Part shown: positions 1 through 3,238 of the stretch, piece after piece | Layout: each line of letters begins with the position of its first letter | How positions within the stretch are numbered: position 1 is the first letter of the stretch | Source: an uncultured Chloroflexus sp. | GTDB lineage: Bacteria > Chloroflexota > Chloroflexia > Chloroflexales > Chloroflexaceae | DNA: 33,886 nt | Assembly: GCF_937951745.1 (NCBI RefSeq) | Contig: NZ_CALFBQ010000064.1 | Location: 1-33,886 of the forward strand | Reading direction: 5' to 3' | The notes under the pieces: generated by a model | The model's input: the letters and a program-made list of their open reading frames with translations, nothing else | Database searches by the model: none | What the model was told of the DNA's origin: nothing | Made by a program: the position numbers and the translations under genes

Positions 1-486
1 CTCTTCTGCCTGTGCATCATTCTCAATGCCAGAGTATCTATACCAAGCACCGTCAAGAACTGCAAACTTGAATGTACCTAGCCCCCTTATCATAAAAACT
101 ACACAAGTATATCCTTTGTCTTGAAAGTCGTAGGCATTCCCAACAATTACTTCATCTGAAGCCAATGTAAGATTGTAAGTTTTTCTTGTTGCTCCGCCTG
201 TAACATCAGATGCCACCAATTGAACACGAGACACAGGCTGGATAACAGCAACTGTAGCAGGCAAAGTAGGATATGGTGTAGCAGTAATAACCACAACCAC
301 TTGACCGAGTGCCTGTGTTGGGTTTTGTTGAACAGAAACTTCGTGTGTAGGAAACCCTACTTCCACAACGCCAAGATTAAGCCCCGTTACGCGAGCGCCA
401 ACTAGATTGAGTATCAGCATTGTGACCGCACCAATGCCAATACCAATGCCGATCATTGAGATGGAATTACGCGGTTCTTTTTCCAT
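1..486 (-). CDS. Partial membrane-anchored secreted protein of unknown function (cassette-like)
   Basis: An open frame of 162 codons runs from an ATG at 486-484 off the left edge without a stop, so the C-terminus is missing. The start has a GGAGA ribosome site nine bases upstream. The N-terminus is a short charged stretch (MEKEPRNS) followed by a Gly/Ile/Val-rich membrane segment at about residues 9-30. A Thr/Pro/Val-rich linker (TATPYPTLPATVAV) and a probable extracellular domain follow. Base use is clearly more AT-rich (many AAA, TTT, ACA, GTT codons) than the housekeeping genes to the right, which suggests foreign origin. It starts 28 bases after the attC-like site at 514-585 and reads away from the integrase relic, the position expected of an integron cassette gene. 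I do not recognise the family; single-pass export is inferred from the hydrophobic segment. Confidence 0.75.
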   Translation of the reverse strand, partial: MEKEPRNSISMIGIGIGIGAVTMLILNLVGARVTGLNLGVVEVGFPTHEVSVQQNPTQALGQVVVVITATPYPTLPATVAVIQPVSRVQLVASDVTGGATRKTYNLTLASDEVIVGNAYDFQDKGYTCVVFMIRGLGTFKFAVLDGAWYRYSGIENDAQAEE

Positions 487-513
487 AGCATTGTCTCCGT
501 CGGCAGTGATGAC

Positions 514-585
514 GCCCAACAGCCTGCGCTTCACCAGTGCCGAGAAGCACAGCGGAGCGGCGTCAGGTGGAAGCGCGTGTTGGCT
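514..585 (-). other. attC-like integron recombination site
   Basis: This is a 72-base imperfect palindrome. Read on the minus strand it begins AGCCAAC (585-579, R''-like, one mismatch to RYYYAAC) and ends GTTGGGC (520-514), a perfect GTTRRRY R' box. Inside, GCGCTTCCACC pairs with GGTGAAGCGC leaving one extra C, like the extrahelical base of attC L boxes. The two box pairs are separated by short unpaired spacers, and the middle (TGACGCCGCTCCGC and a small GTGC/GCAC stem) acts as the variable terminal structure. This architecture is the diagnostic of folded attC sites. It lies 77 bases upstream of an integron-integrase relic and 28 bases before a minus-strand gene. The fold was built by eye; whether it is recombinogenic is unknown. 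Confidence 0.6.
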
Positions 586-662
586 GGCAATTTCGAGACA
601 CCTAGCTCGCTAAGATGGTAGGACAAAAACCGAAGGGTGTCAATCCCATCGGAGGAACACCA

Positions 663-1410
663 ATGGAACCAATTCCCTAGAACCTGCTCGACCAAGTCCG
701 CGATACCCTGCGCCGTCACCACGACTCCATCCGCACCGAAACCGCCTCCGTGGACTGAATCCGGCGCTTTATCCTGTTCCATGGCAAACGCCACCCTCAC
801 GAGATGGGGACGCCCAACGTCAAAGCATTCCTCACCCATCTGGCAGGCAAAGCGACTGTCGCCGCCTCCACTCGATATCAAGCCCTCAGCGCTTTTCTGT
901 TCCTCTCCCGCGAGGCGCTGAAAAGGAGCCGAGGCCCGATTGCCGCCCTGCACGCCACGAAGCCCAAACGCCTGCCCGCCGTCCTCGTCAACGAGGAAGT
1001 GCGCCGCGTCCTCGACCACCTCTCAGACACCCACCGACTGATGGTGCAACGCCGCTACGGCTCCGGCCTGCGCCTGATGGAGCGCCTGCGGCTGCGTGTC
1101 AAGGACCTCGACTTCGCTCGACGATCATGGTGCGTGACGGTACGGGTATGAACGACCGAGTGACCATGGTGCCCAACAGCCTCGTCGCACCGCTTCAGGA
1201 GCACCGGCACGAGGAGGGCCTAGCCAAAGGCTACGGTGCCGGTTCCCTCCCCTATGCCTTGGAGCACACGTACCCGTATGCCAACCGGGAGTGGACTTGG
1301 CCCGATGTCTTTCTCTCAGACCGGCTGTCGGTGACCTCGCACAGCGGCGTTGTGCGCCGCCATCACCCAGGCGAGCGTGGCCTGCAAAAGGCCATCCGTC
1401 AGGTGGCCCA
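663..1410 (+). pseudogene. intI: Integron-type tyrosine recombinase (IntI family), broken
   Basis: Conceptual translation gives an IntI-like protein: an N-terminal SAM-like region (LLDQVRDTLRRHH, then [17 protein letters not shown]), a core with the first catalytic Arg in [17 protein letters not shown], and the IntI-type insert (LPYALEHTYPYANREW, SGVVRRHH). It has at least three lesions: TAG at 678-680, TGA at 756-758 where family members have Trp before IRRF, and a frameshift near 1123 (DLDFAR continues in another frame as [17 protein letters not shown]). Similarity stops at about 1405-1412 (LQKAIRQVA), before the HxxR and Tyr boxes, where an IS5-type transposase begins. It cannot encode an active recombinase. 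A GGAGG ribosome site precedes the ATG. Its 5' end faces the attC-like site, as intI genes face their cassette array. Confidence 0.82.
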
Positions 1411-1700
1411 ATGGGTCATGCGTACCGGCACGGCTTGGGCCGATATGCCGAGCCGATACCCGCTCGGCTCAACCCACCATCGGTACCTCCAAGCCTAGGG
1501 AAAAGCCGACGTGTGTATCCAGACTCTCGATGTCCTCGCCGAAGACCTATATGCCCGCGCTCGGATCGACCTGTCCGAATGCTTCATAGCTGGCACAAAC
1601 GTGCCGGCCAAGAGGAGGCGACGGCGTCGGCAAGACCAAGCGCGGCAAAGCGAGCGCACCGATTTTGCGCGGTTACGCCGATTGACCAGTTCAACATCAA
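1411..1700 (+). pseudogene. IS5-family transposase, N-terminal/central remnant
   Basis: Directly after the integrase break the translation becomes WVMRTGTAWADMPSRYP, the IS5-family WVLRTGaPWRDLPerY region. It continues to a tag-stopped LQA*GKADVC (TAG 1496-1498) and then LDVLAEDLYARARIDLSECF and IAGTNVPAKR. In working relatives the last segment is CFIDGTFVPAK, with the first catalytic Asp of the DDE triad; here it is Ala, so the enzyme is dead apart from the stop codon. After about 1640 the frame shifts (GKTKRGKASAPILRGYAD is in another frame) and similarity fades by 1700. The matching C-terminal part appears at 2269-2600, so an ISKra4 element probably entered in between. Nothing recognisable was seen at 1700-1818. 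Confidence 0.7.
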
Positions 1701-1818: not shown

Positions 1819-2230
1819 ATGACAAACGACAGACTCATCTAAGCGATTCGTGAAGAGACCGACGCCGAGATTGCTGCCCTGTTGGAACGGGGAAATCAGG
1901 CCGAAGGTGCGACTCTGACGGATATTGAGGACTGCGTGCTGGAGGCGCACCAGCGGATTGGCCAAGTTCTGATGCGCACACTGCTCGAACAGCAGGAAGA
2001 ACGACGGAACGCCGAGATACGGGTCAATCCCGAAATCGGTAAGCGGCTGCACCTAAAGGAACGGGGGCGATCGTGACCCGCTTGGGAACGATCACCTACG
2101 AACGGGTATACTACTATGATCCGCACAAGTGCTAGGGTGGTATCCTCTGGACGAGCGGTTGGGCATCTGGGGGCAGCTCAGCGCCGGATTGGCGCGCGCA
2201 ATGGTCTTTCTGGGGGCGTATCTGCCACCG
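1819..2230 (+). pseudogene. ISKra4-family transposase, N-terminal remnant
   Basis: From ATG 1819 the frame reads MTNDRLI, a TAA at 1840-1842, then a helical N-terminal region (TDIEDCVLEAHQRIGQVLM, EQQEERRNAEI). This is followed in a second frame by VTRLGTITYERVYYYDPHKC and, after a TAG at 2133-2135 and another shift, by GWYPLDERLGIWGQLSAGLA and RAMVFLGAYLPPA. The order of a helical N-terminus, vRtRLGtvryeRpyY..C..C, and YPLDErLGL..g..SpgLar is that of ISKra4-family transposases. The catalytic core is absent: after LPPA the sequence passes into the IS5 C-terminal relic. The element therefore survives only as a fragment with multiple stops and frameshifts. Confidence 0.65.
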
Positions 2231-2268
2231 GCGAGTCGGTTGAAGCGGCGCGCTGAGCCTGTCGAAGC

Positions 2269-2600
2269 GTGGCGTTCGTCGACCAAAGCTATACAGGGGA
2301 ACAACCGGCGGCCGACGCCCACGGCATCCGGCTGGCGGTCGTCAAAAGGTCGGAAGCCAAACGGGGCTTCGTGCTGCGCTTCGATGCGCTCAGCGCACCG
2401 CTGCCGCACCGCTAGGTCGTTGAGAGAGTCTTCGCTTGGCTCAGCGCTTCGCTAGGCGAAGCGTCGAAGCGATGGCGCGCGTCTGCCGGCTGGCATGCGA
2501 TGATGAGCGGTTGCCGGAGACCTTGGCGGGATTGCATGTTCTGGCCTTTGCGATGCTCATGCTGAAACGGTTCATTACCTTTATGCTCGAATGTACATAA
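2269..2600 (+). pseudogene. IS5-family transposase, C-terminal remnant
   Basis: The translation gives [20 protein letters not shown], then [13 protein letters not shown], a TAG at 2413-2415, VVERVFAWLS, and in another frame ERLPETLAGLHVLAFAMLML with KRFI and a stop at 2598-2600. This matches the end of IS5-family transposases: FVDqGYtGe, the RWVVERSFAWL box carrying the catalytic Glu, and ERLPETLAGLHflAFa.LmLrRFv. The stop falls on the Trp of RWVVER. A perfect 17-base hairpin (2446-2462, GCTTCGC/GCGAAGC) interrupts the reading frame. The remnant ends within a few bases of the broken aminotransferase, so this insertion or a later deletion removed that gene's 3' half. Confidence 0.75.
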
Positions 2601-2602
2601 CA

Positions 2603-3238
2603 GGCCCCTAGCTCAGCGAGATTGAGATCGATCTGGCCGGGAGCATGCGCACCATCAATCACACTGAGGATGCCGGCAGCGCGCGCCCGCCGGCAGATTT
2701 CGGCCACCGGCATAACCAATGCGGTCGGCGAGGTGATATGGCTGAGCAAGATTACACGGGTGCGCGGTGTCACGCCGCGCCAAATCTGTTCGACAATCTC
2801 ATCATACGTCGCCACCGGCAGCTCAACCGGCTGGTTGACGTAGGTCGCGCCGCGTTGCAGACACACATAGCGCCATGTGCGTTCGATCGCGCCATACTCA
2901 TGAGTGATGCCCAACACCTCATCCCCCGGTTGCAACGCGATTGAGCGGGCAACGATATTGAGCGCGTAGGTCACATTCGGCACAAAGACCAGATCATCCG
3001 CCAGCGCGCCAACGAATGTCGCTAACTGCGCGCGCGCTTGGCGCAGCAGGTCGGGCAAGCGGCGACCGAGAAACTCGACCGGCTGGGATTCGAGGGTGCG
3101 TTGCCATTGTTGGAAGGTATCGAACACCGGACGTGGGCAGGCGCCAAAACTGCCATGGTTGAGAAAGGTCATATCGCGCCGGAGCAAAAACTGCTCGGCG
3201 AGAGCAGGCAACGGTAGCGAGAGGGTCGGAGCAGCCAT
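2603..3238 (-). pseudogene. Class V aminotransferase, 3'-truncated by IS remnant
   Basis: From ATG 3238 (AAGGA ribosome site ten bases upstream) the frame encodes about 211 residues of a PLP-dependent class V aminotransferase of the isopenicillin-N-epimerase/cysteine-desulfurase-like group. Visible are FLNHGSFGACPRPV at the N-terminus, FVPNVTYALNIVAR, the HEYGAIERTW segment, and the PLP-ring Asp in VIDGAHAPGQID. Similarity ends at NLAELGA; in intact relatives the next segment carries the catalytic Lys in HKW. Beyond that, the open frame reads about 54 unrelated residues through antisense IS5 sequence down to 2441. About half of a normal 380-400 residue protein is missing, including the cofactor lysine, so no activity is expected. 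The substrate cannot be told. Confidence 0.8.

Follow-up and report, generated by a model that had tools for sequence, protein, structure and literature searches.

Results

The window analysed here, a stretch of 33,886 bases, is one whole contig (C64) of a genome assembled into 94 contigs (4.25 Mb, 99.4% complete), and its base 1 is a contig end. Everything up to position 2602 belongs to a 2.6-kb block that interrupts a class V aminotransferase gene. From left to right the block holds an orphan open reading frame (ORF) that runs off the contig, an attC site, a promoter-like sequence, the pseudogene of an integron integrase (intI) and remnants of insertion sequences (IS). It contains an integron wreck: a dead integrase gene, one recognisable attC and an adjoining orphan gene.

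The attC site is a 72-base palindrome on the minus strand at 514-585. It is composed of R'' (585-579), L'' with one extrahelical base, a variable loop, L' and R' (520-514), with unpaired spacers. R' is a perfect GTTGGGC and R'' (AGCCAAC) departs once from RYYYAAC, just as the first-pass annotation of this DNA had described. By these sequence features 514-585 is an attC, and it stands in array orientation, on the strand opposite intI. Motif-plus-fold scanning, strict and relaxed, found one site in the window. A covariance search, one of the checks proposed with the first-pass annotation, placed the site far above background (66.9 bits, E 1.6e-13; the runner-up in the window reached 11.5 bits, E 1.2). 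Searched genome-wide, it is recovered at E 2.0e-11, with at least one other match at E ≤ 0.5 (C28:36289-36350). BLAST with 505-600 gave matches at E ≤ 0.001 in 17 of the order's 82 genomes, the window's own among them; the best match in another genome is 90% identical over 72 bases. The bottom-strand fold, a further check from the same source, gave a more qualified result: the strand does fold (−18.2 kcal/mol as DNA) but modestly against shuffles, of which 7 in 200 were equal or better (z −2.04).

The 16 attC sites behind the covariance model come from G064, G065 and G006, three further genomes of the order; the window's site was excluded. An initial alignment took in 19 of the 38 sites from the relaxed scan. 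The remaining 19 were set aside by eye; they include the sites of the window, of contig C28 and of locus L068, all later recovered by the model. Removal of two sites with a gapped arm and of one near-duplicate left the 16 seeds. The seed loci were picked partly by BLAST with 514-585 and oriented from their arms, so that the held-out test is of partial independence, and the model's E-values are rough.

The seed alignment describes two helices, with a single bulged base in L'' and with spacers 2 and 5 bases long; 92.0% of 288 cells pair. Cells changed on both sides number 21, against 9.2 in shuffles (none of 500 as high), and versions with the structure slid have at most 4. Two other measures are weaker: pairs with two-sided change (7 against 4.8 in shuffles, equalled or exceeded in 31 of 500) and additional pair types (14 against 10.9, equalled or exceeded in 10 of 500).

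These data bear on the reading of 514-585 as an ordinary repetitive palindrome and no attC. The fold taken by itself, just two standard deviations above shuffles, fits that reading. The bulged base, the unequal spacers, the differing genes between attC copies and the array arrangement beside full-length intI in related genomes speak against it, as do the covariance score and the two-sided pair changes, and we give it virtually no credence. A chance palindrome was likewise excluded, by the score, by the two-sided changes within the family and by the arrays.

The attC family is widespread in the order. At least 35 of the 82 genomes (own included) have a match at E ≤ 0.01 in an order-wide model search that scored 61 candidates per genome under stricter filters; among the candidates scored, 47 of the 82 genomes gave none. 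The search of the window's own genome scored 150 of 6727 candidates. Counts of attC per genome from both searches are lower bounds, and a second attC on C28 (39.4 bits), absent from the 150-candidate search, was found when that locus was searched.

Leading away from the attC is ORF 486-1 (1-486, minus strand, 162 aa and still open where the contig ends), a probable gene cassette. By eye, it has an N-terminal membrane segment and a putative RBS, GGAG, just 5' of its ATG. The first-pass annotation had rightly seen an AT-rich gene here (44.2% GC, against 59.4% for 2603-33886), though 27 bases, not 28, separate its start from the attC edge. The ORF matches no Pfam, NCBIfam or PADLOC family and, among the order's 82 genomes, is present in its own alone. 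A scan of genome contigs, which reaches close relatives only and may not include the own genome, returned 42 pattern stretches and no relative. Conservation of the gene in the genus was considered and excluded: none of the seven other genomes carries it, in line with the first-pass annotation.

The same genome has a cassette-like unit on contig C28 (36289-37262; 15494-16467 of locus L008), in which a GNAT acetyltransferase ORF lies between two attC matches (L008 15494-15555 and 16397-16467). The ORF begins 32 bases after its attC, and the GNAT ORF stretch is 40% GC (0.404). We found no IntI match on C28 at E ≤ 1e-5. The two ORFs can be weighed together against the proposal that ORF 486-1 is an ordinary strain-specific gene that landed beside an attC. 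Narrow distribution and low GC are not specific to cassettes, and an attC of the ORF's own is not seen, the contig ending inside the ORF with one attC seen at the locus. On the other side, both ORFs start close to an attC and read away from it, and both are low in GC. We consider an ordinary gene unlikely.

On the other flank, profile searches bear out the integrase relic that had been placed 77 bases from the palindrome. It occupies 663-1411 on the plus strand. NCBIfam profile TIGR02249 matches it in two frames of the window (2.4e-31 and 1.1e-17), and the matches span positions 1-149 and 148-251 of the 315 in the profile. In the genome search the matches are 684-1127, with one TGA inside (2.4e-43), and 1118-1411 in another frame (9.3e-18). 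Both fall under the family cut-off for the whole protein. From ATG 663, 77 bases off the attC edge, the frame runs into TAG at 678 and TGA at 756 and shifts near 1120; these lesions were read from the sequence. Around 1411 the gene breaks off at a transposase remnant and its 3' end is missing, with nothing past the last matched profile position. The gene is thus present as a pseudogene of an integron-type tyrosine recombinase, and an active integrase with a complete catalytic region was not found, given two stops, a frameshift and the 3' loss.

This is the only intI-type pseudogene in the genome search. The assembly's other TIGR02249 matches, on C48 and C33, are weak, at a threshold that 14 of 14 control genomes also pass. 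In a tree of 27 rows the relic is a long branch at an open fork. Its nearest neighbours by tree path are the integrases of loci L016 and L017, and also L067a; the short stretches examined at L016 and L017 gave no attC match.

The space between attC and intI holds no recognisable attI. No GTTRRRY was found there in array orientation (585-684), even when one mismatch after GTT was allowed; G064 and G065 retain the attI next to their intI. The attC occupies attI's place, and it would therefore close a lost or gene-less cassette rather than be the own attC of ORF 486-1. The first-pass reading of an integron with its first cassette is accordingly right about the relic integron and wrong about the ORF as the cassette of this attC. 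ORF 486-1 would instead be the following cassette, with its own attC past base 1. A promoter-like TTGACA-17-TACCAT (615-643, minus strand, 10 of 12 consensus matches) points at the array from the place of a Pc promoter; in a scan of 400-800, shuffles average 0.3 such sites. Going by the consensus match, 643-615 may be a promoter for the cassettes.

Downstream of the broken integrase, the block consists of IS remnants. Joined to the intI end is an IS4/IS5-type transposase remnant (DUF4096; 1400-1600, plus strand), whose start rests on family matches below curated cut-offs and whose extent to about 1600 was judged by eye. The translation of 1820-2160 (plus strand) resembles a transposase that we take to be of ISKra4 type. 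At the block edge (2180-2602, plus strand) lies an IS element, presumably IS5-type, represented by its C-terminal part and right end. The stretch 2129-2452 matches no Pfam family. This right end has six further copies in the genome, five of the six followed by CTAG or CTAA.

At 2603 the aminotransferase gene begins abruptly (2603-3238, minus strand; Pfam Aminotran_5, 2.8e-18). The window has residues 1-214, and residues 210-398 lie on contig C19 of the same genome, at about 451-1020. The gene is whole in each of the six relatives used for comparison (G006, G007, G008, G009, G010 and G012, leaving out G011), with 398-399 of 399 residues in one piece, and homology to relatives at the locus ends inside it, at window 2603-2619. 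CTAG is kept at both junctions (window 2603 and C19:451), and C19 begins with the N-terminal part of an IS4/5-type transposase (DUF4096, 3.9e-4, below the curated cut-off). With IS ends at both edges, the integron relic lies inside an IS-bordered block if C64 joins C19, a join that the gene order of the relatives suggests. The block may derive from one invaded IS or from two flanking copies; both fit. No strong attC was found on the C19 side of the broken gene, where the best of 26 weak matches reached 12.8 bits.

Integrons with a full-length intI and the same attC family exist in G064 and G065 (loci L063, L064 and L065), which we take to be Roseiflexus-like genomes. Their attC sites are up to 90% identical to the window's over 72 bases and have the same orientation. 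They differ from the window in that intI is full length, with 48-49% protein identity to the window's over the N-terminal part, in a GTTAGCC crossover some 160 bases away from where the intI match begins, and, for G064, in having 9 attC matches in a 20-kb stretch against one in the window. G064 and G065 have 168 bases of intI-proximal DNA in common, at 97.6% identity, up to GTTAGCCCGC; between two G065 contigs this DNA is identical at 169 of 169 positions up to the same point. Past it, G064 and the two G065 contigs diverge except at attC sites. We read this shared flank followed by divergence as a sign that cassettes were exchanged at attI. Just before the crossover in all three loci we noted by eye two copies of a direct repeat, ACATAGAGAGTC.

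The orientation seen in the window recurs. In seven loci with intI (the window and L063-L068), all 28 attC matches, 16 of them seeds and 12 non-seeds, lie opposite the intI strand; in L066, attC sites flank intI relics on both sides. A related IntI, also broken, is present in G006, where two attC sites lie some 1.7 kb off in the same orientation as the window's. Across 18 further intI loci, represented by short stretches (the longest 6,627 bases), two have an attC at E ≤ 0.05 (L028 and L015).

Two side observations concern these loci. In G006, two broken intI copies stand in tandem (L067 8494-10350). In G051 (C3:757571-758629; locus L014) an attC lies 45 bases from an intI match on the same strand, an inverted integrase arrangement, and by eye follows a glyoxalase-like gene. 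The orientation is therefore not universal.

We also came across an unnamed gene of about 110 residues (MRTR..YGDRLVCVRYRYD..) with 10 full-length matches at E ≤ 1e-24. Nine of the ten have an IntI gene no more than about 1.1 kb away and are either divergent from it or located at its 3' end. Two members tested match no Pfam or NCBIfam family. Eight of nine stretches with this gene (L016, L012 and L125-L130) gave no attC match; in the ninth, L067, there are two at a distance of about 1.7 kb. Elsewhere, Chloroflexus-like genomes have short relatives, one of which is in the window's own at C60:30040-30222.

Discussion

The attC and the decayed intI stand in canonical relative orientation, beside an ORF absent from the relatives searched. 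Very probably, block 1-1411 is a decayed chromosomal integron of the type that has a full-length integrase elsewhere in the order. We propose the following history. A working IntI would have acted on attC sites as a folded bottom strand, recombining them with an attI immediately left of its own gene, so that cassettes stacked leftwards on the minus strand and were perhaps expressed from the promoter near 643-615. The intI gene died through stops and a frameshift and lost its 3' end against transposase remnants. The attI and the gene of the first cassette would also have disappeared, so that the attC of this cassette (514-585) now stands 77 bases from where intI starts, and ORF 486-1 would be the cassette next after the lost first one. 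In favour of the integron reading count the covariance score, the two-sided pair changes, the 28 of 28 attC matches opposite intI, the shared attI flank of G064 and G065, the C28 unit and the narrow distribution of the ORF. Weighing against it are the single visible attC, the contig end inside the ORF, the unrecognisable attI crossover, the long branch of the relic in the tree, the same-strand attC of G051, the partial independence of the model and the modest fold.

An alternative is that chance or IS traffic joined a lone attC to a dead intI, the relic of an unrelated IntI-type recombinase that never served this attC. The block is rich in IS remnants, and some IntI relatives appear to have no array nearby, given that L067 alone among the nine small-gene loci shows attC. 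Yet the genome has a single intI-type pseudogene and at least two attC matches at E ≤ 0.5 in 4.25 Mb (plus the weaker one on C28), and relic and attC come within 77 bases of each other in the canonical orientation. The broken IntI of G006, too, is accompanied by its two attC sites. We judge a chance meeting very unlikely. Rather improbable as well, if slightly less so, is the idea that the dead intI belongs to the mostly array-free lineage with the ~110-residue gene and sits inside an IS5-type element that split the aminotransferase gene. If this were true, the relic would record a recombinase switching between a cassette-collecting life and another mobile life.

As a decayed chromosomal integron, the locus can be set beside known systems. 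Sedentary chromosomal integrons share with it an intI with an integron-specific profile, the canonical attC orientation and an adjoining low-GC orphan ORF. They differ in that the window's integrase is dead and short, its attI is unrecognisable, it has one attC and the contig ends in the array. IntegronFinder 2.0 distinguishes complete integrons, In0 and CALIN, and draft assemblies split integrons at contig ends (PMC9024848). The C28 unit, two attC around a GNAT ORF with no IntI match, is like a CALIN, a cluster of attC sites without an integrase; the window differs in that its attC still adjoins intI remains.

Also comparable are the intI pseudogenes of a 2008 study, which made up nearly a third of the intI genes there and likewise carry stops and frameshifts (PMC2426708). 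That study counts Chloroflexi among the divisions with intI; the genome analysed here is not named in those parts of its text on which we draw. Chloroflexota are again listed with integrons in PMC9668308 and PMC8618304, an IntI class is given as about 60% similar to taxa including Chloroflexi (PMC9176274), and sul4 is reported with integron integrase genes, one host being a member of Chloroflexota (PMC12772301). The first-pass statement that integrons are little described in this lineage is to be corrected to this extent: the phylum was already listed with them. Full-text searches for Roseiflexus with integron returned no paper and, judged by title, those for Chloroflexus with integron none on Chloroflexus integrons. 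We found no description of the present loci in the literature searched.

The relic is real but ordinary, a further case of a known kind, the decayed chromosomal integron, and by itself it leaves the general picture of integrons unchanged. Its contribution is a clear remnant in a genus that is probably a photosynthetic member of Chloroflexota. The comparison with the Roseiflexus-like genomes adds different first cassettes behind one attI flank. Together these loci are few and tractable, and they allow attI, attC and cassette turnover to be read directly outside Proteobacteria.
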